From a virus: a stretch of DNA of 48,836 nt. The DNA lies in the IMG/VR virus record IMGVR_UViG_3300044630_000439, positions 1-48,836 of that record; one strand, 5' to 3'. Positions 2,703 to 20,224 of this stretch are shown piece by piece. The position numbers and the translations under genes are program-made. The notes below the pieces were generated by a model. That model had not been told where the DNA came from. It saw only the letters and a list, made by a program, of their open reading frames with translations, and ran no database searches. Each line of letters opens with the position of its first letter. Position 1 is the stretch's first letter.

Positions 2703-3041
2703 ATGGCAGAAGTCTATAAGAACGCACAGGTACAGGGTACTGCATCTACAGGTACATATGCAACTTTGTACAATACTGGTGCTTCAACTACCGCAGTAAT
2801 TTCATCAATTCTTGTTACCAATACTGCTGCCACCGCTGCTCTTTATCGTATTGGCATTATGCCATCTGCTGGCACACCAGCAATTGCAAACGGTGAGTGG
2901 CTTATCTATGATGCAACGGTGCAGCCAAACGATACCGTTTCTTTAACACTTGGTGTTGTTTTAGGAAACACAGAATTTATTAGGGTATCGTCTTCTGCGA
3001 ATACCGTCTGCTTTAATGCATTTGTGTCGGAGATTTCCTAA
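2703..3041 (+). CDS. Small virion-associated protein
   Basis: 112 residues, rich in Ala, Thr, Ser and Val, with no Lys- or Arg-rich region and no membrane segment. The pattern (YATLYNTGASTTAVISSILVTN, later EFIRVSSSANTVCFNAFVSEIS in part) is that of a single beta-sandwich seen in small accessory proteins of many tailed phages. Its own -10 box and Shine-Dalgarno sequence precede it, and its stop overlaps the start of the glycine-rich protein by one base (TAATG), so the two may act together in the adhesin. A similar-looking 93-residue protein lies at 46244. No specific function can be assigned. Confidence 0.65.
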   Translation: MAEVYKNAQVQGTASTGTYATLYNTGASTTAVISSILVTNTAATAALYRIGIMPSAGTPAIANGEWLIYDATVQPNDTVSLTLGVVLGNTEFIRVSSSANTVCFNAFVSEIS

Positions 3042-5353
3042 TGGCAATCGGCAGATTAAGTTCTGCTAAGAACACATACACCAATCAAAATCCTACTATA
3101 ACTGCGGTTTCAGCATCAGGTGGCACAGAAACTACATATACAGCAAATGGAAAAACATATAAAGTACATACATTCACAGGAAGTTCTTCTCTTATAGTAA
3201 ACTATCCAGGACTAGTTGATGTGCTTTGTATCGGTGGTGGGGGCGGCGGTGCAGGAGAGCGTGCTGGAGGTGGTGGTGCAGGAGGGTTCGTTTTTGCTCA
3301 ATCATATTTTGTTGAAGTTGGAAATATAACCGTTGCCATTGGCGCTGGTGGAGCGGGTGCTTATGGTGACCATGCCCAGAATGGAATTGCGTCAAGATTT
3401 GGAAGTTTGGTTTCTCCTGGTGGTGGTGGAGGTGCAGGTGATAGAACTGCTAACGGTGCTCGTCCAGGAATGAATGGCGCTTCTGGAGGTGGCGCTGGAT
3501 CAACAAGCGGATCAAGCACTGGTGGCCTCGGAGTAACTGGCATTGGTAATAATGGTGGTGGAACTACTGGCAACGGCGGAGGTGGCGGTGGTGGTGCAGG
3601 TGCTGCTGGAACTACTGGGCCAAATGGTAATGGTGGAAACGGACTAGCATCAACAATCACTGGATCTTCAGTCACCTATGCTGGTGGAGGTGCTGGATCA
3701 TTCTCTGGAACTGCTGGAACTGGAGGTGGTGGAACTTCTGGTGTTAATGGAACCGCCAATACAGGCGGCGGTGGTGGAGGATCGGGGGGTCTTGATGGTG
3801 ATGGATCTAATGGTGGCAGTGGCATTGTAATTGTTCGTTATGAAATAAACACTATTCCATCAACTACTCCAGAATCTACTCAAGTATCTGCATATACTGG
3901 AACATATTCAACATATACTTCTAATAACATTACTTATGATGTGTATAGGTATACAGGATCAGGAAGCATTACTTTTGCATACCCTGGATTTATTGATTGT
4001 GTTGTTGTAGGTGGAGGAGGGGGAGCAGCAGGAAACGCCTATGCTCGTCGCGGCTCTGGCGGTGGAGGAGGTGTTTCTTCTCAAACATCCCTTTATGTTG
4101 TTCCTGGATCGTATTCTATTACGGTTGGTAATGGAGGAACTGGAGCAACTAACTCTGGTGGAGGCGCTGGAGGATTGTCCAAGATAACTGGTAATGGAAT
4201 AAACATCGTTGCCGTTGGAGGCGGCGGTGGATGGGGTGCAGCCCCCAACCCTGTTTCTGCACCTCGTGGAGACTCTTCTGGAGGATTGCCGTTCACCACT
4301 GCTGGATTTGAGATTCTTTACGCACCAATTAATGGCTTTCTGGGTGGGCAGGCTGATGCGGATAACCGTCCTGGTGGTGGTGCAGGTGGTGTTGGTAGCG
4401 GAAGCACCGCTGGTCCTGGAATAACTTCTTCCTTTTCTGGCTCATCTGTTGAATATGGTAAAGGTGGCGGTAGTTCTGGATCTGGTGCTGCTGGTGCAGT
4501 AAATACTGGTGAGGGTGGATTTTCACCAGGGGGCGCTGGCGGTAGCGGAACGGTAGTCATCCGTGTAATTCGTTCAAATAGAAATGCTCCTTCTTCAGTA
4601 GTAGCAAGTGGCGGTACAGAAACAACATACACTGGAAATGGAACAAATGGAATTTCTGGACAGAATTATAAGGTACATTCTTTTACTGGATCTTCTACCT
4701 TCACAATGACGCAGGGTGGATTCGTTGATTGCCTTTTGGTGGGCGGAGGGGGTGGCGGTGGCTATGGCTATGGAGGTGGCGGTGGCGGTGGTGGTCACCT
4801 TTATAGAGAATCAGTTTACCTTAGTGCGGGAACTCATACAATTACTGTAGGTGCTGGTGGCGCAGGTGCTGGAGGTACTGGCAATGGTGTAAGTGGTGCT
4901 TCTAGCGCTATTGGTAATATTGGGATAGGATCAGATGCAATTCTTGCTGCTGGAGGTGGAGGTGGATGTAATGATGGAACATATAACGCTAGCGGTACTA
5001 GAGGTGGATGTGGCGGAGGAACAGGCAGAATAGGTATTTTTGGAATAGGTTATCAGGGTGGTAACGGATTTGGATTTGATGGCGCAAACAACGGTGGTGG
5101 AGGTGGAGGTGCAGGAGCATCAGCAACCAACAGAAATGGAGGTGCTGGCCTTGCTAACTCAATTACTGGATCATCAGTTACTCGTGCTGGAGGTGGAGGA
5201 GCAGGTGGTGGAACAACTAGTACTGGAGGAGTAGGTGGCGGAGGAAATAATGACGTTGCTGGAACGGTCAACACTGGAGGAGGCGGTGGTGGCGCAGCCG
5301 TAACTGCTGCTGCTGGCGGCAGCGGTATAGTAATAATCAGATACGCTACCTGA
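3041..5353 (+). CDS. Glycine-rich tail adhesin, three modules
   Basis: 770 residues. Three consecutive modules of about 250 residues each begin with a beta segment (TYKVHTFTGSSSL-like), pass through a hydrophobic VDVLCIGGGGGG-like strand into long runs of GG and GGG, and end in GSGIVIVRY-like strands near 3840, 4570 and 5353. Such sequences belong to the glycine-rich domain family of phage fibres; in T-even gp38-type adhesins the Gly runs form packed polyglycine II helices carrying variable loops that bind the receptor. Loops between Gly runs differ between modules. The start is set by the TAATG overlap with the preceding small protein. Role as receptor-binding protein is inferred. Confidence 0.75.
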   Translation: MAIGRLSSAKNTYTNQNPTITAVSASGGTETTYTANGKTYKVHTFTGSSSLIVNYPGLVDVLCIGGGGGGAGERAGGGGAGGFVFAQSYFVEVGNITVAIGAGGAGAYGDHAQNGIASRFGSLVSPGGGGGAGDRTANGARPGMNGASGGGAGSTSGSSTGGLGVTGIGNNGGGTTGNGGGGGGGAGAAGTTGPNGNGGNGLASTITGSSVTYAGGGAGSFSGTAGTGGGGTSGVNGTANTGGGGGGSGGLDGDGSNGGSGIVIVRYEINTIPSTTPESTQVSAYTGTYSTYTSNNITYDVYRYTGSGSITFAYPGFIDCVVVGGGGGAAGNAYARRGSGGGGGVSSQTSLYVVPGSYSITVGNGGTGATNSGGGAGGLSKITGNGINIVAVGGGGGWGAAPNPVSAPRGDSSGGLPFTTAGFEILYAPINGFLGGQADADNRPGGGAGGVGSGSTAGPGITSSFSGSSVEYGKGGGSSGSGAAGAVNTGEGGFSPGGAGGSGTVVIRVIRSNRNAPSSVVASGGTETTYTGNGTNGISGQNYKVHSFTGSSTFTMTQGGFVDCLLVGGGGGGGYGYGGGGGGGGHLYRESVYLSAGTHTITVGAGGAGAGGTGNGVSGASSAIGNIGIGSDAILAAGGGGGCNDGTYNASGTRGGCGGGTGRIGIFGIGYQGGNGFGFDGANNGGGGGGAGASATNRNGGAGLANSITGSSVTRAGGGGAGGGTTSTGGVGGGGNNDVAGTVNTGGGGGGAAVTAAAGGSGIVIIRYAT

Positions 5354-5374: not shown

Positions 5375-8300
5375 ATGGCAATTTCTAACGTAGCGAACCC
5401 ACAAGTAGCGAACATTAATCCTACTGGTGTTATTCGTGCTACTGGTGGAACAATAACTACTTTTACTCAGGGTGGAATTTCTTATACCTGCCATACCTTC
5501 ACTTCTAGCGGTGCTTTCAATGTTTATGCTGGTGGTGGAGATGTTGAATACCTCGTTGTAGGTGGCGGTGGAGCAGGAGGCTGGAACTACGGAGGTGGCG
5601 GAGGAGCAGGTGGACTTCTTACAGGAATTATAAGCGTCTCAACTGGTTCTATTCCAATTACAGTGGGAGCAGCAGGATCTTCTAACTCTTCACAAACTAT
5701 CACTGGTGGCAGTGGTGGTCTTTCTTCATTTGGTGGAATTATTGCAGCAGGTGGAGGCGGTGGTGGTGCTCTTACTGCTGGAAACTATGATCCAATGTCT
5801 GGTGCAGGTGGTGGTTCTGGTGGAGGGTGTAGTGGTTTTGGTCGTGGATTTAATGCTCCAGCAGGATTGGGAATAGTTGGTCAAGGATTTAATGGTGGTC
5901 AAGGCAGCACAACTGCTGGTGGCGGTGGTGGAGGATCTTCTGCTATAGGAACAACTTCTAGCGGAAATAATGGTGGTGCTGGTGGAGCAGGAACAACTTC
6001 TTCTATAAATGGTACTGCAACTCTGTATTCAGCAGGTGGTGGAGGTGGAGCCGTAAGCACTGGTGGTGCTATTGGGGGTGCTGGAGCAGGTGTAGGAGGT
6101 TCTGGAGGTGGTGCAGGTGGAACTGCCACAGGATACGGATGTGGTGGAGGTGGAGCGGGAAGTGGATCTTCTGGATCAGGATTCCAGGGTATAGTAATAA
6201 TTCGTTATCCAAATGCATCAATTCCAATTCCTGCAAACTTCCAATCAGGATGGGCAAGCATTTCTTCATCAACCGCCACGGTAACCACACTTGGAGATTA
6301 TTCTGTTCATAGATTTACTAGCACAGGGTCTATCACCATTAATTCACCTGGAGTTATGGATGTTTTTCTTGTAGGTGGTGGAGGTGCTGCAAGTAATTCA
6401 TATGGTGCAGGTGGAGGCGCTGGCGGAGTTCAAACACTATACAGTTATTATGTACCCGCTGGAACATACTCAGTAACTATTGGCGCTGGTGGTGCTGCAA
6501 CATCTGGAGCATGGGGAGCAAATGGTGGATCAACTATTTTTTCTGGATTGGTAATGCCTGGAGGTGGAGGAGGTGGAATGGGAGGAACTACTGGATTCCG
6601 TGCTAGTGGAAGAAATGGTGCTTGTGGTGGAGGTGGTGGATACGATAGCAATGCCGCTGCTGGTGGACTAGGTATGCTTGGCATTGGAAATGATGGTGGT
6701 CCTGCATTTAATGCAACAGGTAATGGTGCTGCTGGTGGCGGTGGAGGCGCTGGAGCGGTTGGTGGTTCTGGAGGAAATGCCATCGGTGGTAATGGTGGAA
6801 TTGGAACTACAAACTCATTCCTAACTGGCTCTCCTCAATATTATGCAGGTGGTGGTGCAGGTGGAGCAAATAATACTGCTGGAACTGGAGGTTTAGGTGG
6901 CGGTGGAAATGGTGGAGTAGGTTCTGGTGCTGGATCTAACGCTACCGCTAACACTGGAGGTGGCGGAGGAGGAGCAGGAAATAACTCTACTTCAGGTAAC
7001 GGTGGAAGCGGAATAATAATTCTTCGTGTAAAGACTCCTGCTACTCCAATATCTACATTAGTATCTGCTACAGGAGGAACTGAAAGCACATACGTTGGAA
7101 ATGGGGCAAATGGTGTAAATGGTGTTACTTATAAAGTACATACATTTAATTCAACTGGAGTTCTTAACGTTGCTTCAAGTGGTCAAGCAGACATTCTTAT
7201 TGTTGGTGGCGGTGGAGGATCACAACAGGCTCAAAATGGATATAATAATGGTGGAGGTGGATCAGGTGGATGGATTCAATATGGTCAAACATTCATTTCT
7301 ACAGGTTCTTTGGCTATAACAGTAGGCGCTGGTGGCGCTGGAGGAAGTGGATTCACACCACCTGGTGTTACAGGTAATCCAGGAAGTCCATCTCGTGTTC
7401 GTAATTCAGTAGATATGTCAAGTTCTGGGGGTGCAGGAGGATGGTATAACCCTGGAAATGGTGCAGGGGACATTAACTTAAATAGTGGTTATGGAGGAAC
7501 CCCTGGCGCTGGATTAACATTTATGATTTCTGGAACAAGCACAACATATGCCGCTGGTGGAAGTTCAACTGCTGGATCTTCTGCTGGAACTGCAAATACT
7601 GGAAATGGTGCAAGCGGTGCTACTGGATCAACAAATGCTGCTGGATCTCAAGGAGGATCAGGAGTTGTTGTTATTCGCTACCCAATGACTCAAGTAACTA
7701 CAGGAACATTTGCGACGGTAGGATCAACAACAGGATCTCCAACAATAACTTCATATACAGGCAATGGTACTAATGGTACTAATGGAACAGTTTATGATGT
7801 TTATAGGTTTACTGGATCAGGATCTATCAACGTGGCTACCCCTGGATTAGCAGATTTGTTAGTCATCGGTGGCGGTGGTGGGGGTGGCTGGAATGCTGGC
7901 GCAGGTGGAGGAGCAGGAGGTCTTCTTTTTGCTCAATCAGCATATCTAAGTTCTGGATCTCAGTCTGTAATTGTTGGATCAGGAGGCTCTGGAGGAGGGC
8001 AAATATCAGGTGATGCCGCTAATGATGGATTAAATGGAAGTGCAAGCATTATTGGATCATTTGTTTCACCAGGCGGTGGTGGTGGTGGATCAATTAGAGT
8101 TGAAGGAGCCAACTACTGGTCTGGTCGTGGACAAAATGGTGGATCAGGTGGTGGAGCATCTGGTTTGGCTAATGGAACAACAGCAGCCGCAGGAGCGGCA
8201 ACACCCACTCTTGGCAACGCTGGAGGAACAGCATTTAATGGAACTGGCTCAACAATTGGTGCTGGAGGTGGAGGAGGTGCTGGAGCAGTTGGAAGCAACG

Positions 8301-8578
8301 GTACTTCAGCAACTGGTGGTGCTGGTGGTGCTGGATTAGCAATAACTATTACTGGTTCTTCCGTGGTCTACGGAGGAGGCGGTGGCGGTGGTGCTCAGAC
8401 AACTGGAGGCGCTGCTGGATCTGGTGGTGGAGGTGCTGGTGCTGCTACAAGTGCTGCTGTAGGATCAGGAACAGCAAACACTGGCGGCGGCGGTGGTGGT
8501 GCTCGCGGCGGAGGCGGAGTTAACAATGGCGGCGCTGGCGGTAGTGGAATCGTAATCATACGTGTAGCAAGAAACTAA
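5375..8578 (+). CDS. Glycine-rich tail adhesin, four modules
   Basis: 1067 residues with the same architecture as the preceding 770-residue protein, but four modules instead of three. Each has a beta entry segment (YTCHTFTSSGAFNV, YSVHRFTSTGSITI, YKVHTFNSTGVLNV, YDVYRFTGSGSINV), a V(D/E)xLxVGGGG strand, a long Gly-rich core and a GSGIVIIR-type exit strand near 6205, 7030, 7680 and the C-terminus. The two genes therefore carry seven related modules in a row, probably produced by duplication. The N-terminal 20 residues, not Gly-rich, may attach to the tail. Receptor binding is inferred from the family; no enzyme motif was seen. Confidence 0.75.
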   Translation: MAISNVANPQVANINPTGVIRATGGTITTFTQGGISYTCHTFTSSGAFNVYAGGGDVEYLVVGGGGAGGWNYGGGGGAGGLLTGIISVSTGSIPITVGAAGSSNSSQTITGGSGGLSSFGGIIAAGGGGGGALTAGNYDPMSGAGGGSGGGCSGFGRGFNAPAGLGIVGQGFNGGQGSTTAGGGGGGSSAIGTTSSGNNGGAGGAGTTSSINGTATLYSAGGGGGAVSTGGAIGGAGAGVGGSGGGAGGTATGYGCGGGGAGSGSSGSGFQGIVIIRYPNASIPIPANFQSGWASISSSTATVTTLGDYSVHRFTSTGSITINSPGVMDVFLVGGGGAASNSYGAGGGAGGVQTLYSYYVPAGTYSVTIGAGGAATSGAWGANGGSTIFSGLVMPGGGGGGMGGTTGFRASGRNGACGGGGGYDSNAAAGGLGMLGIGNDGGPAFNATGNGAAGGGGGAGAVGGSGGNAIGGNGGIGTTNSFLTGSPQYYAGGGAGGANNTAGTGGLGGGGNGGVGSGAGSNATANTGGGGGGAGNNSTSGNGGSGIIILRVKTPATPISTLVSATGGTESTYVGNGANGVNGVTYKVHTFNSTGVLNVASSGQADILIVGGGGGSQQAQNGYNNGGGGSGGWIQYGQTFISTGSLAITVGAGGAGGSGFTPPGVTGNPGSPSRVRNSVDMSSSGGAGGWYNPGNGAGDINLNSGYGGTPGAGLTFMISGTSTTYAAGGSSTAGSSAGTANTGNGASGATGSTNAAGSQGGSGVVVIRYPMTQVTTGTFATVGSTTGSPTITSYTGNGTNGTNGTVYDVYRFTGSGSINVATPGLADLLVIGGGGGGGWNAGAGGGAGGLLFAQSAYLSSGSQSVIVGSGGSGGGQISGDAANDGLNGSASIIGSFVSPGGGGGGSIRVEGANYWSGRGQNGGSGGGASGLANGTTAAAGAATPTLGNAGGTAFNGTGSTIGAGGGGGAGAVGSNGTSATGGAGGAGLAITITGSSVVYGGGGGGGAQTTGGAAGSGGGGAGAATSAAVGSGTANTGGGGGGARGGGGVNNGGAGGSGIVIIRVARN

Positions 8579-9303: not shown

Positions 9304-10170
9304 TTGACTCAATCAGTAGGTAGCGGAACATATAACGTAACAATTCCATCATTGTCTGACAATGCCTCTATTGTTGATGCCTTTAAATATTATCATCAGG
9401 GTGGACTAACTGGCTCACCCGCTACAAACAGCCTAGAGCAGTATCTTATTGATATAAACAATAGAGCACAATACATTGAGAATGCTATTGGATATACAAC
9501 TCTTAATCCATTAAGCCCATCTTCAAACATAAACTCAAGAATAACTACACTTGAATCTACAGTTGGAACAAGTCTTGCGTCAACCTATGTAAAGATGATT
9601 CCATCATCAAACTCAGTTACTGCAAACAGAAACATAATTACACCATCTACAGCGACAATTATTCCATTAACAATTCAGGGGGTAGTTGCACAGAGCGCAG
9701 ATCTTCAGCAATGGCAGACCTCAGCAGCGACGGTAGCAAAGGTAGATAGCACAGGAAAGATGTTTGCCTATGATGGAACATCTACTGCTGAAGTAGCAAC
9801 GGTATCTGGAACTCAGACATTCACCAATAAGACTTTAACAACACCAATTCAGACAATAGGAACAAATCCTAGAACATCATCCTATGTTTTGGCACTATCA
9901 GATCAGAGCAAGATTATTGAGGTTAACTCAAATTCAGCAACAACTGTAGGGGTTCCACTAGATTCTAGCGTAAACTTTCCAATAGGAACATGTATTGCTA
10001 TAATGCAGACTGGAACTGCTCAGATAACAATAGATCCAGCAGTAAGCGTTGGGGGAAGCGTTGTTGTCAATGCCACTCCAGGACTGAAGACAAGAACTCA
10101 GTGGTCAATGGTTACCCTCATCAAGAGAAGCGCTAATCTCTGGGTTGCTGTTGGAGATCTAACCGCATAG
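9304..10170 (+). CDS. Tail fibre, cassette copy 1
   Basis: 288 residues. The start is TTG at 9304: an in-frame TGA lies at 9295 and no ATG is available, while GGTGG upstream gives a ribosome site. The N-terminal part has helical, coiled segments (SLEQYLIDINNRAQYIENAI; NSRITTLESTV), the middle has the common fibre motif SGTQTFTNKTLTTP, and the last 95 residues form a beta-rich tip ending LKTRTQWSMVTLIKR...WVAVGDLTA. This tip is clearly related to the C-terminus of the fibre at 10922. The next gene encodes a small partner, and the same pair recurs at 10922-12356. Confidence 0.75.
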   Translation: MTQSVGSGTYNVTIPSLSDNASIVDAFKYYHQGGLTGSPATNSLEQYLIDINNRAQYIENAIGYTTLNPLSPSSNINSRITTLESTVGTSLASTYVKMIPSSNSVTANRNIITPSTATIIPLTIQGVVAQSADLQQWQTSAATVAKVDSTGKMFAYDGTSTAEVATVSGTQTFTNKTLTTPIQTIGTNPRTSSYVLALSDQSKIIEVNSNSATTVGVPLDSSVNFPIGTCIAIMQTGTAQITIDPAVSVGGSVVVNATPGLKTRTQWSMVTLIKRSANLWVAVGDLTA

Positions 10171-10190
10171 ATTGGTGGAGGTTGATACTT

Positions 10191-10667
10191 ATGTTTAATC
10201 CCGCTCTCACAGTTTCTCTAGCATGTGGAGGAATGGGAGTAGTTGCACCAACACCAACTCTTTCCCATGGACCATCAGCAGGAACATTTATTATTGATAA
10301 TTATGATTCTAATTTAAGATATTCAATAACGGCAGGAACAAGAAGCGGAAATACCATAACTCTTGGAACAAGTGGAACCGTTATATGTCAGGTTACTGCT
10401 TTTACTCAAAAGGGTGTAACTCCATCAGCAGCAAAGACTTGTGAGCGTAAGACGTACACGGAGTCATATGTTCAGGTTGGAACGGCTCCAGGTAGTTGTG
10501 GGTATGTTCCAGTTGGTCAGGGAGGTTGCAATACTGTATCTTTTTGTGAGGGTGGACAGTGTTACTGTATTCAATGTTTTGGCGGTGGTCCAATTTATGG
10601 TTATGTTAAGGATGCAACACCATCAGGGTATACTGATAGTTATGGAGAATGGTGGAAGATTACATGA
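10191..10667 (+). CDS. Small partner of fibre cassette, copy 1 (Cys-rich)
   Basis: 158 residues from ATG 10191, chosen over an upstream in-frame TTG at 10182 because GGAGG (10177-10181) lies nine bases before the ATG. The N-terminus is beta-rich; the C-terminal 60 residues have eight Cys clustered around GSCGYVPVGQGGCNTVSFCE and CYCIQCFGG, ending in EWWKIT. The protein at 11895 shares the KGVT-P-S...ERK-(T/S)-Y motif in the middle and the E-W-x-K-I-T C-terminus, so the two are homologous. Each follows a fibre with a related tip, which suggests a cap or a fibre-specific assembly partner. The Cys pattern could bind metal or form disulfides; neither is shown. Confidence 0.65.
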   Translation: MFNPALTVSLACGGMGVVAPTPTLSHGPSAGTFIIDNYDSNLRYSITAGTRSGNTITLGTSGTVICQVTAFTQKGVTPSAAKTCERKTYTESYVQVGTAPGSCGYVPVGQGGCNTVSFCEGGQCYCIQCFGGGPIYGYVKDATPSGYTDSYGEWWKIT

Positions 10668-10906
10668 GAATTGATGATGAGCCAACAATAAGTTTTTCTA
10701 ATGAGCATGGTATTGGAGCAACATATACCATAAAAGAACTTGTTGGACTAAGAGAAACCTGCTCAGATGATGAATATTCTGAAAGAATATCAACTTGCCG
10801 ATCATGCAGAAATTTTGTTGGAAATGAGATATGTAATAAAAATGAACAACTTGTTCGTGTTTTTTGCAGGTTGCTAGACTCAAAGTGTCCAAAAAATTTT
10901 TGGTAA
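10664..10906 (+). CDS. Small Cys-rich putative zinc-binding protein
   Basis: 80 residues from ATG 10664, which overlaps the TGA of the preceding gene (ATGA); an earlier in-frame ATG at 10649 would need a larger overlap. The C-terminal half carries C-x2-C (CRSCRNF), then three further Cys (EICNKN, VFCRLL, SKCPKNFW). This spacing, with a C-terminal CPxxxW, is seen in small zinc-ribbon-like proteins of many phages whose role is unknown. It lies between the two copies of the fibre cassette and has no counterpart after the second copy. Confidence 0.6.
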   Translation: MRIDDEPTISFSNEHGIGATYTIKELVGLRETCSDDEYSERISTCRSCRNFVGNEICNKNEQLVRVFCRLLDSKCPKNFW

Positions 10907-10915
10907 TGGTATAAT
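10907..10915 (+). promoter_or_regulatory. Extended -10 promoter, exactly leaderless spacing
   Basis: TGG-TATAAT with six bases before the ATG at 10922. If the A of ATG is +1, the hexamer occupies -12 to -7, the ideal position. No Shine-Dalgarno sequence is present. Confidence 0.65.
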
Positions 10916-10921
10916 TTTTAT

Positions 10922-11863
10922 ATGTCTAGTGGAGCAACTTCAGTATATGGATTGCCTTATCCAATTCAAACAGACCCAGTTGATGTAGCAGCAGATGTTC
11001 AGTCTTTGGCTACAAATGTTGAGACACAGTTGTTGCTCAAAGCACCACTCCTCTCTCCAACTTTCACAGGAGTCCCACTATCTACAACCCCAGCAGATTC
11101 AGATAGCAGCACTAAGATTGCTACCACTGCATTTGTCAAGAATCAGGCATACTCTACAGTTGCCTCCCCCACCTTTACAGGAACGGTAACAATACCAACA
11201 CTATCTGTTACTGGTGCTGCAACAATCACATCTACAATATCAGCATCTGGACTTGCTGGATCTCTTCTTTCTTCCACCGTTGGATCTACTCTTGGAGTTG
11301 CTGCTGCTGGAACATCAGCAGTACCAGCACGATCAGATCACGTTCATCCAACACCAATTCCTACGCAAACTGGTAATAACGGAAAGTTCCTTACTACAGA
11401 TGGTAGTGCAGTATCTTGGGGAACAGTAATTGGAAGCGTATACCAGTCATCTGCTCCATCCTCACCATCAACAGGAGCCATTTGGACAGATTCAGACAAC
11501 AATGTTTTGTATCAGTACAATGGAAGTGCCTGGGTATCTCCAATGGGTGTGGAGATTGCAACACCAACATATTCAATCAATGATTACACTCTTGTACTTG
11601 CAGATCAGTCAAGATTCTTGCTTCTTTCAAATGGAACTACTGCGGGATCAATTAGTATTCCAACTAACTCTTCAGTTGGTTTTGCAATTGGAACTCAGAT
11701 TCAGGTTGTGCAGTACGGCACTGGACAGATTACGATTACTCCAAAAAGTGGGGTAGTTATAACTGGTACACCAGGATTAAAACTTAGAACTCAGTGGTCA
11801 TCTGCAACATTAGTCAAGATAGGTACAGATACATGGGTTGCCATTGGAGATCTTTCAGCATAA
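10922..11863 (+). CDS. Tail fibre, cassette copy 2
   Basis: 313 residues. The N-terminus resembles other fibre bases (SVYGLPYPIQTDPVDVAADV), followed by SPTFTGVP...STKIATTAFVKNQ, a second SPTFTGTV, the ARSDHVHP motif, GNNGKFLTTDGSAVSW and SPSTGAIWTDSDNNVLYQY. The last 95 residues match the tip of the fibre at 9304 (L(K)xRTQWSxxTL(V/I)K...WVA(I/V)GDL(S/T)A), whereas the shafts differ. The start lies six bases after TATAAT with no Shine-Dalgarno sequence, so the message is probably leaderless. The following gene is the matching small partner. Role: receptor-binding or accessory fibre, inferred from motifs. Confidence 0.8.
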   Translation: MSSGATSVYGLPYPIQTDPVDVAADVQSLATNVETQLLLKAPLLSPTFTGVPLSTTPADSDSSTKIATTAFVKNQAYSTVASPTFTGTVTIPTLSVTGAATITSTISASGLAGSLLSSTVGSTLGVAAAGTSAVPARSDHVHPTPIPTQTGNNGKFLTTDGSAVSWGTVIGSVYQSSAPSSPSTGAIWTDSDNNVLYQYNGSAWVSPMGVEIATPTYSINDYTLVLADQSRFLLLSNGTTAGSISIPTNSSVGFAIGTQIQVVQYGTGQITITPKSGVVITGTPGLKLRTQWSSATLVKIGTDTWVAIGDLSA

Positions 11864-11865
11864 TG

Positions 11866-11871
11866 TATAAT
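11866..11871 (+). promoter_or_regulatory. -10 promoter with SD-containing leader
   Basis: TATAAT 23 nt before the ATG at 11895; AGGAGG at 11880-11885 is a near-perfect Shine-Dalgarno sequence nine bases before the start. Confidence 0.5.
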
Positions 11872-11894
11872 ATTTTTCCAGGAGGATTTGAATA

Positions 11895-12356
11895 ATGGCT
11901 TTTACCTCACTTTCAGGAACGTCTGGTTCTAGTGGAAGATACGTTAACGCTAAGCCAACAATGACTTATAATGCTTTCCCAGGAATCTTTAATATCACTA
12001 ACAATGATCGTACAGCAAACTACTCCTCATACTCAACTGTAACTGCTGGAACCCTATCCTTCGGCTCAAATAATTCAACGGTTCAGTTGTCAAATGCAGA
12101 TACTATCGCTACCGTTACTAATCGTTCTGCAAAGGGTGTAACTTCAGCACCATCTACACTTGCTGAAAGAAAGTCTTACACATATACTTATGTTGTTGCT
12201 CCACCACCACAGCAGTACGGTTGCAGCCCATACACAGGATGCAATGGAACTCGTCATGGCGGAGATTGCATGGCATTTTATGGTAGTCCATATACTTATT
12301 TGAACCCCGCACCAGGATACACTTCTGGCGGTTCAGAGTGGTACAAGATAACATAA
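11895..12356 (+). CDS. Small partner of fibre cassette, copy 2
   Basis: 153 residues. Homologous to the 158-residue protein at 10191: both have an N-terminal beta-rich half, a central KGVT...ERKxYTxxYV segment and a C-terminus ending in (A/S)GYT-x-S-x-(G/S)-E-W-(W/Y)-K-I-T. This copy has only three Cys (YGCSPYTGC; GGDCMAF) instead of the cluster in copy 1 and has a PPPQQ stretch. It follows the fibre whose tip matches the fibre before copy 1, so the pair seems to travel together. Separate -10 box and strong Shine-Dalgarno sequence. Function unknown; cap, chaperone or receptor-contact subunit are possible. Confidence 0.65.
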   Translation: MAFTSLSGTSGSSGRYVNAKPTMTYNAFPGIFNITNNDRTANYSSYSTVTAGTLSFGSNNSTVQLSNADTIATVTNRSAKGVTSAPSTLAERKSYTYTYVVAPPPQQYGCSPYTGCNGTRHGGDCMAFYGSPYTYLNPAPGYTSGGSEWYKIT

Positions 12357-12406: not shown

Positions 12407-12435
12407 TTGCGGAAATCATAAGAAGTTGCTACAAT
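12407..12435 (+). promoter_or_regulatory. Sigma70-type promoter of nrdJ
   Basis: TTGCGG (12407-12412), 17-base spacer, TACAAT (12430-12435) with TGC just upstream of the -10. This is one of the few promoters here with a plausible -35. The short CCGC/GCGG inverted repeat at 12402-12412 overlaps the -35. The 114 bases between the upstream gene and nrdJ leave no room for a cobalamin riboswitch and none was seen. Confidence 0.55.
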
Positions 12436-12470
12436 TAGATTTCACTAAAATTCAAAAGGACGGTGTTCAA

Positions 12471-14414
12471 ATGTCATTCATTGACGACAACGGATCAATT
12501 TCAGATCCATACAGAAACTTTATTCATGTCTCCAGATATAGCCGCTGGCTAGAGGATAAGAACAGAAGGGAGACTTGGGTAGAAACTGTAGATCGTTACA
12601 TGAACTTCATGAAGGGCCATCTTGTTAAGAATTATGGCTATGATGAAAACGATATTAAGTTTGCCAAGGTAAGGGATGCAATCCTTAATCATAAGGTCAT
12701 GCCTTCTATGCGTGGACTCATGACTGCTGGACCTGCGCTAGAGCGAGATCACATCGCAGCATACAACTGCTCATTTATTGCCGTAGATAGCCTTAGATCA
12801 TTCGATGAGGCCATGTATATTCTCATGAACGGAACTGGTGTTGGATTCTCTGTTGAGCAGAAGTACGTTGCCAACCTTCCAGTAATTGCAGAAGAATTTT
12901 ACCCAACAAGCACAACCATCATGGTTGAAGATTCTAAGTTGGGTTGGGCAAAGGCATTCAAGGAACTTATTGGACTTCTAGTTACTGGTCAGATTCCAGA
13001 GTGGGATATGTCAAAGGTTCGTCCAGCAGGATCACGACTAAAGACATTTGGTGGTCGTGCATCAGGACCAGAGCCACTAAACGATCTTTTCAAGTTTACT
13101 GTTGAGCAGTTCAAGATTGCTAAGGGCCGTCGTCTAAAGCCAATTGAGGCTCATGATCTTATGTGTAAGATTGGCGAGGTAGTTGTTGTTGGTGGAGTTC
13201 GTCGTTCAGCACTAATCTCTCTTTCTAATCTAGATGACTTTGAAATGGCTAAGGCTAAGTCAGGTCAATGGTGGGAGACAGAGGGGCAGCGTGCTCTCGC
13301 TAATAACTCAGCGGTATACAATATGAAGCCAAATACCGCTCAGTTCCTTCGTGAATGGCGCAACCTATATGAATCAAAGTCAGGCGAGCGTGGTATCTAC
13401 AACATGGATTCAGTTCGCAAGCACATTGATTCATTTGGTCGTCGTGACTCATCCAAGGTAACTGGAACTAACCCATGTGGAGAGATTCTTCTTCGTGCCA
13501 ATGAGTTCTGCAATCTTACTGAGGTTGTTATTGACGCAGATGATACTGCTGAAACTCTTGCCGATAAGATTGCTCTTGCTTCAATCCTAGGCACATGGCA
13601 GTCAACAATGACCAACTTCAAGTATATTCGTAAGAACTGGAAGGATAACTGCGAGGAAGAGCGTCTACTTGGCGTTTCCCTTACAGGAATCTTTGGAAAT
13701 AAGTTAACAGGAAAGATGCACGACGGTCTTCCAAAGTTGCTCACAGATCTACGAGAGGTAGCAGTTGCTGAGAACGAGAAGGAGGCAGCACTTCTTGGCA
13801 TTAATGCATCTGTTGCTGTAACCACTGTCAAGCCTTCAGGAACTGTATCTCAGTTGACTGGTGTTTCCAGTGGAATTCACCCATGGTATTCAGAGTATTA
13901 CATTCGTTCAGTTCGTGCAGACAACAAAGATCCTTTGACAGCATTCCTCAAGGATTTTGGCGTTCCCAATGAACCAGATGTAATGAAGCCAGATGCCACC
14001 ACGGTATTCTACTTCCCAATTAAGGCTCCTGTTGGAGCAACAATTACAAGCGATCTTTCTGCCATTGATCATCTAGAGATGTGGAAGGTATATCGCCAGA
14101 ACTGGACAGAGCACAATCCTTCTGTAACAATTAACGTTGCAGAAGATGAGTGGCTAGAGGTAGGTGCTTGGGTGTACAAGAACTTTGATGCCGTTGGAGG
14201 AGTTTCATTCCTTCCTGCATCAGAGCACTCATACAAGCAGGCTCCATATCAGGAGATTACCAAGGAGGAGTATGAAGAGGCTGTTGCAAAGATGCCAAAG
14301 AATATTCCATGGCAGTCACTTCCACTTTATGAACTAGAAGATACAACAAGTGGAAGTCAGGAACTTGCCTGCACAGCAGGTGCTTGTGATGTAGTAGATC
14401 TTGTTTCTGCGTAA
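12471..14414 (+). CDS. nrdJ: Class II (adenosylcobalamin-dependent) ribonucleotide reductase
   Basis: 647 residues from ATG 12471 (AAGGA ten bases upstream; preferred over an in-frame TTG at 12426 lying inside the promoter). It makes deoxynucleotides from ribonucleotides. Cys positions fit the monomeric class II enzyme of Lactobacillus leichmannii: C100 and C347 as the redox pair, C336 in NPCGEI as the thiyl radical residue (spacing to C347 is 11, as for C408 and C419), and the C-terminal re-reducing pair C634/C639 in CTAGAC (spacing 5, as for C731/C736). VKPSGTVSQLTGVSSGIHPW is the conserved phosphate-binding block. It lies alone between tail genes, with its own promoter and terminator. No thioredoxin or glutaredoxin gene is near it. 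Confidence 0.95.
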   Translation: MSFIDDNGSISDPYRNFIHVSRYSRWLEDKNRRETWVETVDRYMNFMKGHLVKNYGYDENDIKFAKVRDAILNHKVMPSMRGLMTAGPALERDHIAAYNCSFIAVDSLRSFDEAMYILMNGTGVGFSVEQKYVANLPVIAEEFYPTSTTIMVEDSKLGWAKAFKELIGLLVTGQIPEWDMSKVRPAGSRLKTFGGRASGPEPLNDLFKFTVEQFKIAKGRRLKPIEAHDLMCKIGEVVVVGGVRRSALISLSNLDDFEMAKAKSGQWWETEGQRALANNSAVYNMKPNTAQFLREWRNLYESKSGERGIYNMDSVRKHIDSFGRRDSSKVTGTNPCGEILLRANEFCNLTEVVIDADDTAETLADKIALASILGTWQSTMTNFKYIRKNWKDNCEEERLLGVSLTGIFGNKLTGKMHDGLPKLLTDLREVAVAENEKEAALLGINASVAVTTVKPSGTVSQLTGVSSGIHPWYSEYYIRSVRADNKDPLTAFLKDFGVPNEPDVMKPDATTVFYFPIKAPVGATITSDLSAIDHLEMWKVYRQNWTEHNPSVTINVAEDEWLEVGAWVYKNFDAVGGVSFLPASEHSYKQAPYQEITKEEYEEAVAKMPKNIPWQSLPLYELEDTTSGSQELACTAGACDVVDLVSA

Positions 14415-14428
14415 TAGGTTGGTTGCGA

Positions 14429-14458
14429 GAGGGGGTAGTCGTCTGACTGCCCCCTTCT
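14429..14458 (+). terminator. Rho-independent terminator after nrdJ
   Basis: Stem GGGGGTAGTC (14431-14440), loop GTCT, GACTGCCCCC (14445-14454) with one G-T pair, then TTCTT. It ends right before the next -10 box. Confidence 0.75.
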
Positions 14459-14467
14459 TGCTATAAT
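14459..14467 (+). promoter_or_regulatory. Extended -10 promoter, leaderless type
   Basis: TGC-TATAAT followed by seven bases and the ATG at 14475. An earlier in-frame ATG at 14466 lies inside the hexamer and would be lost from the transcript. Confidence 0.6.
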
Positions 14468-14474
14468 GTATTAT

Positions 14475-17400
14475 ATGAGTATTGCTGCAAACCAGTATGC
14501 AAATAAGGTATTTGCAGAGCATCCAATAAGTCTGTGGAGCCTAGACGATCAGGCATATTACATTTCATTGATTGATGATGGTGATAGAAGATTCTCCAAC
14601 TGGACTGGATCTGGATTTACCACTACAGACTACACATCTTTGCCCTCAGGATTGCCAGAATCACCATTTCCATCAAGCAATGTTTATTCATCTTTTACCA
14701 AGAGCACAACTGCTTCGGGAACAGTAGAGATTGTTAGTCCAGCACTATTTAGTGCCACAGAGATTAATCCTGGAATAACAACTTTCTGCGTAAACTTTTT
14801 CCTTTATCAGAATCCAACATTCATAACTGCTTTTAGAGTAGGTTATAGATATAACAATGCTCTTGGAGTACAGCAGACAGTAATTTCATCAAATATATCT
14901 GCACCATTATCATCTTCATGGATTAACTTTAATAACTCATATAGCATTCCTACAAGTTGGTCAGGAAGCGTAAAGATTTTTATTCAGGTAGATTTTGCTG
15001 CAAGTTCAGGCGGAACAGATGCAAGAACCATAACAATGCACGGTCTATCAATTGGTCAATCATCAGAAACAACATGCTACACCAGTCTTGGCGTTACTCC
15101 AATCGCCCTTCCAGCAGAATTAAACATGTCTTCATTATCTGGAACACCTGCTGATCAGTATGGAGTGTTATCAGATAATGGATATTTCATAATAAGAAAT
15201 AATCTTCTTCTTGCCCACAATGATGGCTTACCAATTATCTATGGAACAGATAACTCAACAAAGATTGCCCCAGCAGGTATATCTGGAATTCCATCATTTG
15301 TGTTCCCAGGCAAGGGTATGCTTCATGAAAATGGCAGGAATAAAAGATATACCTTTGAGATGTGGATAAAGATTGATCCATCAACAACTAAGTCTCAAAG
15401 AATACTTGGACCACTTGACTCTACAGACGGGATATACGTTAAAGAGGGTTTTCTAACATTAGTAATAGATGATCAGATTGGATCTTATCCTGTATCAGAA
15501 TGGTATAGGCCAATGCTTCTTCATCTATCAATACGAGACAACAATGCAACTGTAATGATTAATGGCGAGCAGGTTATTGACATACCCTTCGCAAGAAACT
15601 CAGTAACTCTTTCAAACCTAAGAGATTGGTGGGGCATCTATTCATATTCATCAACAAATATGTTTGAGATAGATTGCCTATCAATATTCCCATACATCTT
15701 GTCAAGTTCAGTAGCAAAGCGTAGATTCGTCTACGGTCAAGGAACTCCAAGCGTTCAGTCCATTGACAATGCTTACAGGGGAACACCAACAACGATAGAG
15801 TTTGCAACAGCAGAATATGGTGCAAGCATCATTTACCCAGACATTGCTCGCTGGGATGCTGGCTACTTTAATAATCTTGATGCCACAAAGAGTTATCTTT
15901 CCGTTCCAAATTATAAACTACCAATAATAAATATTGGAGGAAGAAATCTAGAGCAGTGGTATGAGGATAATCTTATTATTAATGATCTAGAATATCCAGA
16001 CGGTACTCATCCTAACTTTATTTCTTTTAGACCAAATCTTATCGCTGGTCAGTGGAATCCAGATGGAATTCAATATCAGGAAGATTGTTACTTAAACTTT
16101 CCAACATTAAATATTCTTAATGATCAGGTTTCAGCAGTTTATGGAGTTTTCGAGGTAGAGGACGATATTGCCTCAGAAAGAATTCTAATAAGTTTTAGTA
16201 ACGTAATCAATGGTCAAACATTTGATATTGTGGTAAATGGAGATTCCATTGATTACAAGATTAATGGAACGATTATATACTCTGAGACAGCAGTTGTTGG
16301 TGTAGAGAATCTAGTTGGCATTAATTTTGAATCTCTAGGAAACACCTTTGGATATGAGGTTTCAAGATTCTTCTCATCACCAGCATCAATTCAGGTATAC
16401 GTTGGAGGAAATGGAACTTACGGATCTACCTTTGAGGGCAAAATCTATTTAATCGGATTTGCCAATCAGATAGATTATTCAAACATCTCAGAGAACTTTC
16501 GTGCAAATGGAACGGCAATAGCAACTAGATATCAGTTCTTGTTTGAGCATCTTTCTAGTTATACACTAATTCCAGAAAACGAATATGGAAAGTTATTCCT
16601 AGATATCTCAGTCTCTGGTCAATGGGAAGAATACTTTCCATTAACATATTTTGCAACATATGTAAATGACGAAAATGGAGATCCTGTATATGAATTGGAT
16701 ATGTTGCAGGTAAATCTTGGATATACAACAGTTTCTTCATCAAGCCTGTGGTCATATGGAGAATTAAAGGTTGATCCAGCATCAACAACATATGCAACCT
16801 TAAAAGCATCTGCATATGGCACAAGTTATTTATCACTTAAGAAAAAGAACAGCACTGGATCAACCATTGACATTTCTGATTCATCAATGCAGTCCTACGT
16901 TACTTTCCAATCACTGTCTAGCGGAGCGAATGCGCCACTATCAAGTTTTGCATATACAAAGAATATTCTAGAAGATGGTGTCATTTATGCAGACGATCAA
17001 AATACCATTTCTATGCCAGAAAGGGTATATGATACAAAGTTTGTATTTAAAGATAATATGATTATCTATCCTCCAAAGGCAAACGATTTTAGAGACTATG
17101 CTATGGTAGTTCATCTACAGATAAGTCAAAGATCAATATTAAAGAGTCCATTAAGAATTAAGAGTTTTGAAATTAGTGCAAAGAATCTTAACTATAACTC
17201 AGCAACACTTCCAAACAACCAAAAGAACTACATTGGAACAAAGTGGGGAAAGAAGGCATATCTCTTAACACAGTCTGTAGCAAATGGAGATGACTATAAG
17301 GTCAACAATCCAATACTTATCCACAAGTCTTCCACACCATACCTTTATAACACAAAGAAGTCAGGAATAAGGGTTATTAATGAAAGCACATCAAATACAA

Positions 17401-18104
17401 TACAAAGTAATCAGAATGAAATTTTTATTCCAATAAACGAGAACGCATCTTATGACTATAAGGTTGGTGCTCTCCAGGTTATGGTAAACCCATCATTTAT
17501 CGTGGGAACTGGAAACATTAAAATGTTTGAGGTTAAGCATAAGAATGGCACGCACATGTATGCAATATCAAAGAGTGATGATAAGGCTATCTTAAATGTT
17601 TATGAAGGTGAAAGTGGCAGCACTCTTGCTACAGGAATTAACTTTTATCAAAACGGTAGATATGTTAAGAATGCAGTATTGAAGAATAATGAGTGGACTT
17701 GCATTGGAATTATTCTTCCAAATGAACTAGACTTTAGCGAATACTCAGACGGTGGAATAAGATTGTTCGGAGGATTCACATTCAACAATATATCTTATTA
17801 CTTATCAGATGGTCTAGGAATTAAATCAGAACTACAGGTTAGAACGTGGCAGAATGTCTTTACTGCTGATGGAACGGTTCCAGGTGGCACAACGTGGGCA
17901 TATTGGAATGGAGAGACTTGGCAGTACGTGTATGTCACTGGTCAATCAACATCATATGTCACAACTCCAGCAGAGATCTATCAGTCTTATGTGGGAACAA
18001 ACAGCACAGTTATTGATGATGGTGGGGGAATGTTGGTCAAACAATCACAGGCAGAGATACTTACTAGCGTTTCTTGGCAAGATATATCCGCTAAACCCGC
18101 ATAA
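14475..18104 (+). CDS. Large minor tail protein with lectin-like domains
   Basis: 1209 residues. The N-terminus (SIAANQYANKVFAEHPISLW, then DDQAYYISLI) is typical of large minor tail proteins of actinobacteriophages as I recall them. A LamG/concanavalin-like segment around residues 280-420 has RYTFEMWIKIDPS, a repeated LxLVIDDQIG strand and WYRPMLLHLSIRDNNATVMI; a similar beta-sandwich pattern (GVFEVEDDIASERILISFSN) recurs near residue 560 and again around 1010-1130. No hydrolase motif was recognised. The start is the ATG seven bases after TATAAT. Sugar binding at the tail tip is likely. It lies just upstream of the head genes, an unusual place for a tail-tip protein. Confidence 0.75.
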   Translation: MSIAANQYANKVFAEHPISLWSLDDQAYYISLIDDGDRRFSNWTGSGFTTTDYTSLPSGLPESPFPSSNVYSSFTKSTTASGTVEIVSPALFSATEINPGITTFCVNFFLYQNPTFITAFRVGYRYNNALGVQQTVISSNISAPLSSSWINFNNSYSIPTSWSGSVKIFIQVDFAASSGGTDARTITMHGLSIGQSSETTCYTSLGVTPIALPAELNMSSLSGTPADQYGVLSDNGYFIIRNNLLLAHNDGLPIIYGTDNSTKIAPAGISGIPSFVFPGKGMLHENGRNKRYTFEMWIKIDPSTTKSQRILGPLDSTDGIYVKEGFLTLVIDDQIGSYPVSEWYRPMLLHLSIRDNNATVMINGEQVIDIPFARNSVTLSNLRDWWGIYSYSSTNMFEIDCLSIFPYILSSSVAKRRFVYGQGTPSVQSIDNAYRGTPTTIEFATAEYGASIIYPDIARWDAGYFNNLDATKSYLSVPNYKLPIINIGGRNLEQWYEDNLIINDLEYPDGTHPNFISFRPNLIAGQWNPDGIQYQEDCYLNFPTLNILNDQVSAVYGVFEVEDDIASERILISFSNVINGQTFDIVVNGDSIDYKINGTIIYSETAVVGVENLVGINFESLGNTFGYEVSRFFSSPASIQVYVGGNGTYGSTFEGKIYLIGFANQIDYSNISENFRANGTAIATRYQFLFEHLSSYTLIPENEYGKLFLDISVSGQWEEYFPLTYFATYVNDENGDPVYELDMLQVNLGYTTVSSSSLWSYGELKVDPASTTYATLKASAYGTSYLSLKKKNSTGSTIDISDSSMQSYVTFQSLSSGANAPLSSFAYTKNILEDGVIYADDQNTISMPERVYDTKFVFKDNMIIYPPKANDFRDYAMVVHLQISQRSILKSPLRIKSFEISAKNLNYNSATLPNNQKNYIGTKWGKKAYLLTQSVANGDDYKVNNPILIHKSSTPYLYNTKKSGIRVINESTSNTIQSNQNEIFIPINENASYDYKVGALQVMVNPSFIVGTGNIKMFEVKHKNGTHMYAISKSDDKAILNVYEGESGSTLATGINFYQNGRYVKNAVLKNNEWTCIGIILPNELDFSEYSDGGIRLFGGFTFNNISYYLSDGLGIKSELQVRTWQNVFTADGTVPGGTTWAYWNGETWQYVYVTGQSTSYVTTPAEIYQSYVGTNSTVIDDGGGMLVKQSQAEILTSVSWQDISAKPA

Positions 18105-18106
18105 TC

Positions 18107-18115
18107 TGGTACAAT
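18107..18115 (+). promoter_or_regulatory. Extended -10 promoter, leaderless type
   Basis: TGG-TACAAT, seven bases before the ATG at 18123. No Shine-Dalgarno sequence. A GTG at 18117 in the same frame lies upstream of the expected transcript start. Confidence 0.55.
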
Positions 18116-18122
18116 TGTGGTT

Positions 18123-18515
18123 ATGAGTAATAAGAAAAAGCCAACTATTGGTAAGACAAAGATCACCGTTATCGACAAGGCAGAAGGCCAAAGGGCCATG
18201 TTTGGTTATGCCTGGGGTTTATACTTCTGGCAATTACCAGATGGACACTTGTTTAAGGATGACGAGGGTAGGCCATTAAACATTCCTTCAGTTGAGGGTG
18301 ATATTAGTCAGATGGCTAAACTCCGTGATGCTGCTGCTGCAAATGGTCAGCCAGAAGGCAATCCATGGTTTTATGCTGGTATCGGTCGTGCGACAGACGA
18401 TGAATATGAGGAGCAGGTTCAGCGCATGGAGCAGGGTCTTATTCCAACAATGAACGACTTTGGTGCGGTTGCCGCAGCGAAGAAGACCTCTCAACTTTAT
18501 GGAGGAGCAGAATAA
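18123..18515 (+). CDS. Conserved protein preceding the portal (unknown function)
   Basis: 130 residues: a Lys-rich N-terminus (MSNKKKPTIGKTKITVIDKA), then an aromatic region (FGYAWGLYFWQLPDGHLFKD), a polar middle and a helical C-terminus with Ala and Gln. The stop overlaps the portal start by one base (TAATG), so the two are probably translated together. I do not recognise the family with certainty; position suggests a role in head assembly or packaging. It is too short and lacks motifs for a large terminase. The start is set by the TACAAT promoter. Confidence 0.6.
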   Translation: MSNKKKPTIGKTKITVIDKAEGQRAMFGYAWGLYFWQLPDGHLFKDDEGRPLNIPSVEGDISQMAKLRDAAAANGQPEGNPWFYAGIGRATDDEYEEQVQRMEQGLIPTMNDFGAVAAAKKTSQLYGGAE

Positions 18516-20188
18516 TGACACAAGAATTCTTAATTGATGCAAAGATGGCAGAGCAAATTATTGAAAACGAATTTGCCAATGCAGATCCATTCAACAAGAG
18601 TTGGGAGGATCTATCAGGATTGCGTGGCATTAATAAGAACTTTAAGCGTCGTCAGGCTCGTGTAGAGAAGGCTGTACCACCACAGGGAATGGCAGTATCT
18701 AGCACAGGTGCAAACAACCTTGTTGTTAATCAGGTTCCAAGAGATCCAGATGGTCAGATTTCTCGCAGATACCTCAGTGATTCAAGATCTATTGGTCAGA
18801 ATACAGATCATACAGTAGGATCAAAGAAGATTAATCCAGGTCAGGTATACCGTAACGGATATGGAATCTTTGATCTTATTACTCCACCATACAACCTTTA
18901 CGAACTTTCAGCATATTACGATACTTCTTTTGCCAACCATGCGGCGGTAGATGCCAAGGTTTCCAATACAGTTGGTGTTGGATACAAGTTTGATATGACT
19001 ACAGCAACTCTTATTAAGTTAGAGACTATGGAAGCCGAAAAAGCAAAGAAGGCCAAGAAGAAGGTTGAGCAGTTAAAGATCCAACTTGGCGAATGGCTAG
19101 AAAGTCTTAATGATGATGATAGTCTAACAAAGACTCTTGAGAAGGTTGTCACTGATATGCAGGCAACTGGAAACGGATACATCGAGGTTGGTCGTACCGT
19201 TGCTGGTGACATTGGTTACATTGGTCATATTCCATCAACAACAATGCGTGTTCGCAGACTTCATGATGGATACATTCAGATCATTGCAGGAACAATCGTA
19301 TACTTTAGAAATTTTGGTGCTACTAATCCAAACCCAGTTACAGAAGATCCTCGTCCAAACGAGGTAATTCATCTTAAGGAATATTCACCACTCAATACAT
19401 TCTATGGAGTTCCAGACATTATTGCCGCAATGACTTCCCTACAGGGCGATCTAATGGCTGCACGCTATAACATTGATTACTTTGAGAACAAGGCTGTTCC
19501 ACGCTACATTATTACTGTCAAGGGTGCAAAGTTAACACCAGAGGCAGAGGATAAGTTGTTCCGTTTCTTCCAGACAGGACTCAAGGGTCAGTCACATCGT
19601 ACCCTGTACATTCCACTTCCTGGAGATTCAGAAGGCAGCAAGATTGAGTTTGAAATGCATCCTGTAGAGAATGGCGTACAGGAAGCATCCTTCTCTCAGT
19701 ATCGCAAGCAGAATCGTGATGACATTCTTATGGCACATCAGGTTCCCCTCTCTAAGTTGGGAGGCATTGATTCAAGTTCTATCGCTGCTGCTATGACACA
19801 AGATCGTACATTCCGTGATCAGGTAGCCAAGCCACTACAAGAGTATGTAGAGAAGGCGATTAATAAGATTATTAAGGAAAAGACTGACATAATTAAGTTG
19901 TCATTCAATCAGGTTAGCCTTATTGATGAAATTGCTCAGTCACAGATTCATGAGCGTTATGTTAAGAATCAGATCATGGTTCCAAACGAGGTAAGAGAAG
20001 ACATTGGTTTACCACAAAGAGATGGTGGAGATAAGCCACTAGAACTCAACCCTCGTCAGGCAGCAGATGCCAAGGGAAACATGGATGGAAACAAGACAAG
20101 AGACGCTGAAAGAACTAATGCACAGTCTGATGGACCAGCCGCAGTAAGCGGAAGAAATCCAAAAGGCGAAGGTCCAAAGACTTCATAA
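18515..20188 (+). CDS. Phage portal protein
   Basis: 557 residues, the usual size for HK97/PBSX-type portals. The conserved core includes an N-terminal LITPPYNLYELSAYYD and a DxK segment, a central clip and stem region with NEVIHLKEYSPL...YGVPDIIAA, DLMAARYNIDYFENKAVPRY, the helical crown QYRKQNRDDILMAHQVPLSKL, and C-terminal KPLQEYVEKAINKII. The extreme C-terminus is polar and probably disordered. Twelve copies form the DNA entry ring at the capsid vertex. It is followed by the protease, capsid and connector genes in the standard order, but no terminase gene precedes it. Confidence 0.92.
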   Translation: MTQEFLIDAKMAEQIIENEFANADPFNKSWEDLSGLRGINKNFKRRQARVEKAVPPQGMAVSSTGANNLVVNQVPRDPDGQISRRYLSDSRSIGQNTDHTVGSKKINPGQVYRNGYGIFDLITPPYNLYELSAYYDTSFANHAAVDAKVSNTVGVGYKFDMTTATLIKLETMEAEKAKKAKKKVEQLKIQLGEWLESLNDDDSLTKTLEKVVTDMQATGNGYIEVGRTVAGDIGYIGHIPSTTMRVRRLHDGYIQIIAGTIVYFRNFGATNPNPVTEDPRPNEVIHLKEYSPLNTFYGVPDIIAAMTSLQGDLMAARYNIDYFENKAVPRYIITVKGAKLTPEAEDKLFRFFQTGLKGQSHRTLYIPLPGDSEGSKIEFEMHPVENGVQEASFSQYRKQNRDDILMAHQVPLSKLGGIDSSSIAAAMTQDRTFRDQVAKPLQEYVEKAINKIIKEKTDIIKLSFNQVSLIDEIAQSQIHERYVKNQIMVPNEVREDIGLPQRDGGDKPLELNPRQAADAKGNMDGNKTRDAERTNAQSDGPAAVSGRNPKGEGPKTS

Positions 20189-20208
20189 CAATTAAATAAA
20201 AATTAATG

Positions 20209-20214
20209 TATAAT
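20209..20214 (+). promoter_or_regulatory. -10 promoter, near-leaderless type
   Basis: TATAAT ten bases before the ATG at 20225; the expected leader is three to four bases. An in-frame ATG at 20213 overlaps the hexamer and cannot start translation from this promoter. Confidence 0.5.
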
Positions 20215-20224
20215 GGGAATAACT

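Follow-up and report, generated by a model that had tools for sequence, protein, structure and literature searches.

The window analysed here, the whole 48,836-nucleotide stretch of viral DNA in IMG/VR record IMGVR_UViG_3300044630_000439, belongs to an aquatic phage and carries between positions 9304 and 12356 two tail fibre genes that end in a common C-terminal domain, here called T, and each is followed by a gene for a small protein, the partner, built on what we call the P domain. The four open reading frames (ORFs) that the original prediction placed here, starting at 9304, 10191, 10922 and 11895, were confirmed, and a further gene, Z, which it did not mention, lies between partner 1 and fibre 2. 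The features of the locus are as follows.

9304..10170, plus strand: fibre 1, B lineage, 288 amino acids (aa), TTG start
9859..10167, plus strand: T tip of fibre 1, putative C-terminal docking domain, all-beta (tip alignment and structure model)
10191..10667, plus strand: partner 1, P domain, cysteine (Cys)-rich, 158 aa counted from ATG
10191..10244, plus strand: N-terminal peptide of partner 1, MFNPALTVSLACGGMGVV, proposed plug into T (partner alignment; N-terminus profile test)
10473..10613, plus strand: hypervariable Cys-rich loop of partner 1 (alignment; the partner 2 counterpart is unstructured in the model)
10649..10906, plus strand: Z, an 85-aa Cys4 protein of phrog_13558, whose relatives match DUF6171; overlaps the end of the partner 1 gene
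10922..11863, plus strand: fibre 2, C lineage, 313 aa
11564..11860, plus strand: T tip of fibre 2 (tip alignment)
11895..12356, plus strand: partner 2, P domain, Cys-poor, 153 aa
11895..11945, plus strand: N-terminal peptide of partner 2, MAFTSLSGTSGSSGRYV, proposed plug into T (alignment; disordered in the model; N-terminus profile test)
12201..12284, plus strand: hypervariable loop of partner 2, residues 103-130 (alignment and model)

The two T tips are identical at 47 of 96 positions (49%; E 3e-25 in a single comparison), that is, divergent rather than near-copies, whereas outside the last 96 residues the fibres gave no significant match and their shafts are unrelated, in line with the earlier claim that they share their last 95 residues but not their shafts. 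The partners align over nearly their full length (56/153 identical, 37%; E 7e-15), share the motifs ERKTY/ERKSY and EWWKIT/EWYKIT, and have nine (partner 1) and three (partner 2) Cys residues, in agreement with the earlier description of homologous small proteins with ERK-x-Y and E-W-(W/Y)-K-I-T motifs and a Cys cluster in the first copy only. Both the tip and the partner similarities are far above chance level. Searches with the partners returned no significant match in Pfam, NCBIfam, the PDB sequences or PHROGs and nothing credible in INPHARED (best E about 1), a single-sequence scan with partner 1 found no relatives, and bacterial genomes scanned with the partner alignment gave no matches. 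As to the earlier statement that no description of the pair is known, these searches gave no match for the partner itself, but the kind of arrangement is familiar from other tip-docked adhesins (gp37-gp38 and T4gp10-like domains, discussed below).

Joint duplication of tip and partner, which had been proposed to account for the two pairs, is not supported: we rejected it on the basis of shaft orthology and of the trees built for P and T. Among related contigs, designated here by L numbers, five carry relatives of partner 2 at 64-71% identity, in each case just upstream of a ribonucleotide reductase (RNR) gene. Three T-tipped fibres (A, B and C) stand in series in L003 and L006, and at least the last three T-tipped fibres are present in L004, with the sole partner behind C in every one of these contigs; in L009, L026, L030, L034 and L036 the B fibre directly adjoins C. 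The B and C lineages co-occur in eight related contigs, where the B orthologues have no partner. The shaft of fibre 1 is 66% identical to that of the L003 B fibre and the shaft of fibre 2 is 43% identical to that of the L003 C fibre, with no match between the two window shafts; only 13-25 nt separate B from C in the relatives, vs 751 nt in the window, where partner 1 and Z occupy the interval; and in the P-domain tree partner 2 clusters with the partners of L003 and L004 while partner 1 falls elsewhere, the two not being sisters. Taken together, these observations suggest that the fibre-1 pair most likely arose when a cassette of P and Z was inserted behind a fibre that is partnerless in the relatives. 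In L004 the C-fibre tip has strongly diverged, yet its partner is still 70% identical to that of the window, which argues against tight one-to-one co-evolution of the tip and partner surfaces.

Tip searches recovered T from at least 280 IMG/VR viral contigs, the best 80 of which were kept for analysis, and from 233 phage records in INPHARED, 223 of them Gordonia phages. Among the 89 tip genes with enough downstream sequence, P lies within 1 kb downstream in only four (three contigs), and exclusive pairing of tip and partner is thereby rejected: the search for tip-partner adjacency that the original prediction had proposed as its own check found homologues of the tip to be usually without the partner (85/89), which is the outcome it had named as refuting it. 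When the P genes are taken as the starting point, 16 of 21 lie directly behind a T tip and four behind a second tip type, W, so that P stands directly behind some fibre tip in 20 of 21 cases. The absence of P from most tip genes, and the apparent insertion of partner 1 and Z between the fibres, could mean that partner and tip are linked cargo neighbours without functional contact, but the placement of P in those 20 cases and the way in which its N-terminus tracks the tip type make this the most improbable of the alternatives that we considered.

T ends 0-2 residues from the C-terminus of the fibre, on very different shafts, and the next gene usually starts at -4 to +33 nt; in the four Gordonia records inspected, T is followed by a small overlapping gene annotated as a hypothetical or minor tail protein. 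The bodies of the followers are mutually unrelated (fn3 in L094, PASTA in L083, Gly_rich_2 in L037, and P), and their N-termini are alike across these bodies: MPIIGVLNASAGGRW in P, MPIVGIVASSDGKYPGTP in the Gly-rich protein, and MPVNSGSQASAGRQPGTP. This was put to a leave-one-body-cluster-out test over 21 clusters: the follower N-termini of each cluster in turn were scored, against 456 control genes, with a profile trained on the remaining ones, and their median percentile was 0.86 (Wilcoxon p 5e-4). Two of the followers (L083 4288-5136 and L094 4319-5638) end in ..LLVHNK and ..LLIHNK behind their PASTA or fn3 parts, a terminus reminiscent of self-processing domains of the Hint type.

The W-type tip ends in ..GD.W.KY, and its followers start with V.xGxW repeats. 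A P body comes after the repeats in four of these followers (L008, L012, L015/L016 and L023), and others have PASTA, FPP repeats and a Cys-rich end; such repeats precede the P body in 4/4 cases behind W tips vs 0/16 behind T. In the P tree the tip and N-terminus type switched about three times, and supported branches require at least two of the switches; L010, which has a T tip, is the sister of L012, which has a W tip (support 100/98). As the N-terminus switches with the tip type on the same body, the exchange boundary falls within the partner gene, where the N-terminus meets the body, which is what would be expected if the N-terminus had to fit the tip. The earlier idea that the partner acts on the tip is thus probably right in a wider form, given the 16 P genes behind T, the N-terminal motif shared by the followers and the change of N-terminus with tip type, but not as an exclusive pairing. 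The second tip type, ending in ..STTDPGTGSEGDIWLKY, also occurs in L009 (1-2803), L034 (1-2530) and L035 (2562-6173), where the next protein combines V.K..GTW repeats with a PASTA-like part, carries FPPFFPP repeats, ends in a Cys-rich stretch and is followed by a DUF6171-type gene and then, as judged by eye, by oxygenase-like genes.

T4 gp38 and the Tfa proteins act as fibre folding chaperones, and the partner could likewise be a fibre-specific folding chaperone, required for trimerisation of the tip and left outside the virion; its small gene immediately downstream of the fibre gene would suit such a role, as would the sharing of one partner by several T fibres in L003, L026 and L030. We consider this unlikely, if somewhat less so than the other alternatives, since a P body with an altered N-terminus can be found following fibre tips that are unrelated to T, P is absent from most T fibres, and a long hypervariable loop within a conserved scaffold would be unusual for a chaperone.

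An AlphaFold2 model of T, built from 69 tip sequences, is a confident all-beta domain (predicted local distance difference test, pLDDT, 95.6). With Foldseek it matched, in the PDB, the Pa223 capsid spike (E 1.7e-6, TM 0.79), a Klebsiella phage baseplate cup (E 7e-4) and the N-terminus of CBA120 TSP4 (E 2e-3, TM 0.6), as well as 6O38, 4DNY and, weakly, T4 gp9. In its fold T resembles the connector domains among these, those of T4 gp9, CBA120 TSP4 and the Pa223 spike. The structures 6O38, 4DNY and 1QEX are listed as relatives of the XD1 domain of TSP4 (PMC8825819), and because T matches the listed relatives T4 gp9, 6O38 and 4DNY, we regard it as XD1/gp9-like. Comparison of T with Pfam and PDB profiles gave no sequence-level membership in the T4gp10-like or XD docking domains.

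The model of partner 2 (22 sequences) has an overall pLDDT of 78, with a beta core (residues ~20-100) and a last strand (~133-153) that are confident at about 90 or higher, and with low confidence for the hypervariable loop (103-130) and residues 1-17. A fold search with the P model in the PDB and BFVD found no confident match, with only a weak resemblance to immunoglobulin (Ig)/BIG2 domains. In the P alignment, the hypervariable positions cluster in a single loop, and the sequence on either side of it is conserved. The Ig-like core, and the fn3 or Gly-rich decoration-like domains carried by neighbouring slots in the relatives, might point to a tip cap or decoration that serves for protection or low-affinity sticking to surfaces rather than to a receptor-specific adhesin; variability confined to a single loop with conserved flanks is, however, the pattern to be expected of a receptor contact, and we think a purely decorative partner improbable.

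A similar arrangement is found in T-even phages of the T2/S16/PP01 type, in which gp38 sits on the gp37 tip and, like P, is a small protein encoded just downstream of the fibre-tip gene, with an N-terminus matched to the fibre tip and hypervariable region(s) flanked by conserved parts; in T2-type gp38 the N-terminus contacts gp37, a mismatched N-terminus failed, and the loops are hypervariable (PMC12892980). Unlike gp38, P has no poly-glycine II sandwich, its sequence is not glycine-lattice like and it has no confident fold match, but has a beta core that is Ig-like and bears a single loop, in many cases rich in Cys, and no sequence relation between the two was detected; T, with its gp9/XD1-like domain, also differs from the gp37 tip. 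In the T4gp10-like and XD domains (G7C, K1-5, Klebsiella KP32, CBA120 TSP4), a beta domain docks another protein, often via a short N-terminal peptide (PMC6872550, PMC8825819), and conserved N-terminal peptides have been modelled as docking there (PMC6872550). T has the fold in common with these domains, but it stands at the distal C-terminus rather than near the N-terminus, and it is followed by small Ig, fn3, PASTA or Gly-rich proteins, whereas the proteins docked on T4gp10-like and XD domains are depolymerase spikes. The minor tail proteins of phrog_8780 and phrog_21978 in Gordonia phages carry the same T domain, also C-terminally, and the bodies of their followers are unrelated to P.

The Cys content of the partner goes together with the presence of Z. 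All 15 partners with at least five Cys residues have a Cys4 protein (phrog_13558; relatives match DUF6171) at most 1.8 kb downstream, vs none of the six with three or fewer (Mann-Whitney p 2e-4), and the window contains both states, partner 1 with the Cys4 gene and partner 2 without it. Window Z falls below the curated cut-off of Pfam PF19668 (DUF6171) but matches phrog_13558 at E 7e-6, and the Z-type proteins of L009 (2600-2803), L014 and L048 are above that cut-off; the Cys4 protein behind Cys-rich partners belongs to DUF6171/phrog_13558 or nearby. We know of no function for DUF6171, and no link between it and Cys-rich fibre-tip proteins was found in the literature searched. As a guess, Z may have a role in thiol or metal maturation of the Cys-rich partner.

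We suggest, with a probability of roughly 60%, that T is a docking tip into which the N-terminal peptide of the downstream protein plugs, and that the Ig-like P body displays its hypervariable loop as an adhesin-like cap. T would be a C-terminal socket at the end of presumably trimeric fibres, the protein encoded downstream would plug into it with its ~18 N-terminal residues, and the remainder of that protein would be an exchangeable distal body. In the P family the plug would lead into the Ig-like beta core and then the hypervariable loop, which in partner 1 is Cys-rich, after which the conserved strand at the C-terminus (GYT..EWWKIT) would return to the core; the loop, lying between the ERK and EWWKIT strands, would be the likely receptor contact, and P most likely the receptor-contacting cap, or adhesin, of the fibre. 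In the Cys-rich versions the downstream Cys4 protein would probably aid folding or metal/thiol maturation of the loop.

Several points weigh against the docking of P on T. In its predicted fold T is nearest to XD1/gp9 rather than to XD2 and XD3, which dock partners in TSP4 and gp10; XD1 is regarded as a spacer by the authors of the TSP4 work because its linkers exit from opposite faces (PMC8825819), although T has no C-terminal linker and its distal face would therefore be free. Several T tips in the relatives, on A and B fibres, lack a partner gene; T may therefore fold or act alone, or a single partner may be shared among several tips. The motif of the followers is a loose one, to which those of Gordonia phages conform to differing degrees (percentiles 0.39, 0.59 and 0.94). 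The switches of tip and N-terminus are just two to three independent events, too few for a formal test, and because just one or two independent changes lie behind the link between Cys content and Z, we treat that link as a lead only.

Immediately upstream of the fibres, the window encodes two large glycine-rich proteins (3041-5353 and 5375-8578) with repeated GGGGG-containing domains, possibly further distal or decoration proteins. On the other side of the fibre array, in the region 12426-23000, a Class II-like RNR separates it from the structural genes. The window portal is 44% identical over its full length to that of Stanwilliamsviridae Streptomyces phages, with which the window also has in common the order RNR-portal with structural genes behind; unlike the window, those phages have no fibre array upstream of RNR. 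From the portal identity and the gene order, an actinobacterial host is likely.

A separate observation concerns an apparent genome-wide +1 frameshift at CGG-A in the phage contigs of L080, L063 and L084 (L140-L153), seen also in L072, L079-L082, L086-L089, L092, L093, L097 and L103. CGG is very rare in the frameshift contigs (24 in about 81,000 codons), and each of the 24 in-frame occurrences is close to one or the other extremity of an ORF: 20 are at most 22 codons from its end and four at most 10 from its start. Of the CGA, CGC and AGG codons, about 6-11% are so placed. Among 4-mers at which ORFs join in +1, CGGA ranks first in each of the three contigs (11/280, 7/305 and 4/185, vs 0.1-0.2%), the joins include terminase, and in-frame homologues have Gly at three well-aligned joins, as if the C were skipped and GGA read. 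The related contig L105 has no CGGA enrichment. No description of such a frameshift was found in the literature searched; the ciliate Euplotes is a precedent for +1 frameshifting (PMC10235951). The phage of the window likewise avoids CGG, with 2 of 15,452 codons, both in the 5' part of ORF 47217-48242, which is probably non-coding there, and an effect on the window was ruled out, as none of its 116 CGGA sites joins frames.

More broadly, and at what we judge to be somewhat short of even odds, T may be a general distal socket in hundreds of environmental phages, open to any protein with a short plug at its N-terminus. Whole genes would then be swapped to exchange one adhesin body for another (Ig with Cys loop, fn3, PASTA, Gly-rich), and the Cys-rich bodies would be accompanied by a DUF6171 protein dedicated to maturing their cysteines. 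If the docking reading is right, the gene next to T in many unannotated phages would encode the receptor-binding cap, which could be found by locating T and looking one gene downstream, and actinobacterial phages of freshwater and soil would thereby gain candidate determinants of host range. It would also offer a testable docking code, in which the type of tip is matched to the type of N-terminus, and a first hint at the function of the orphan family DUF6171.

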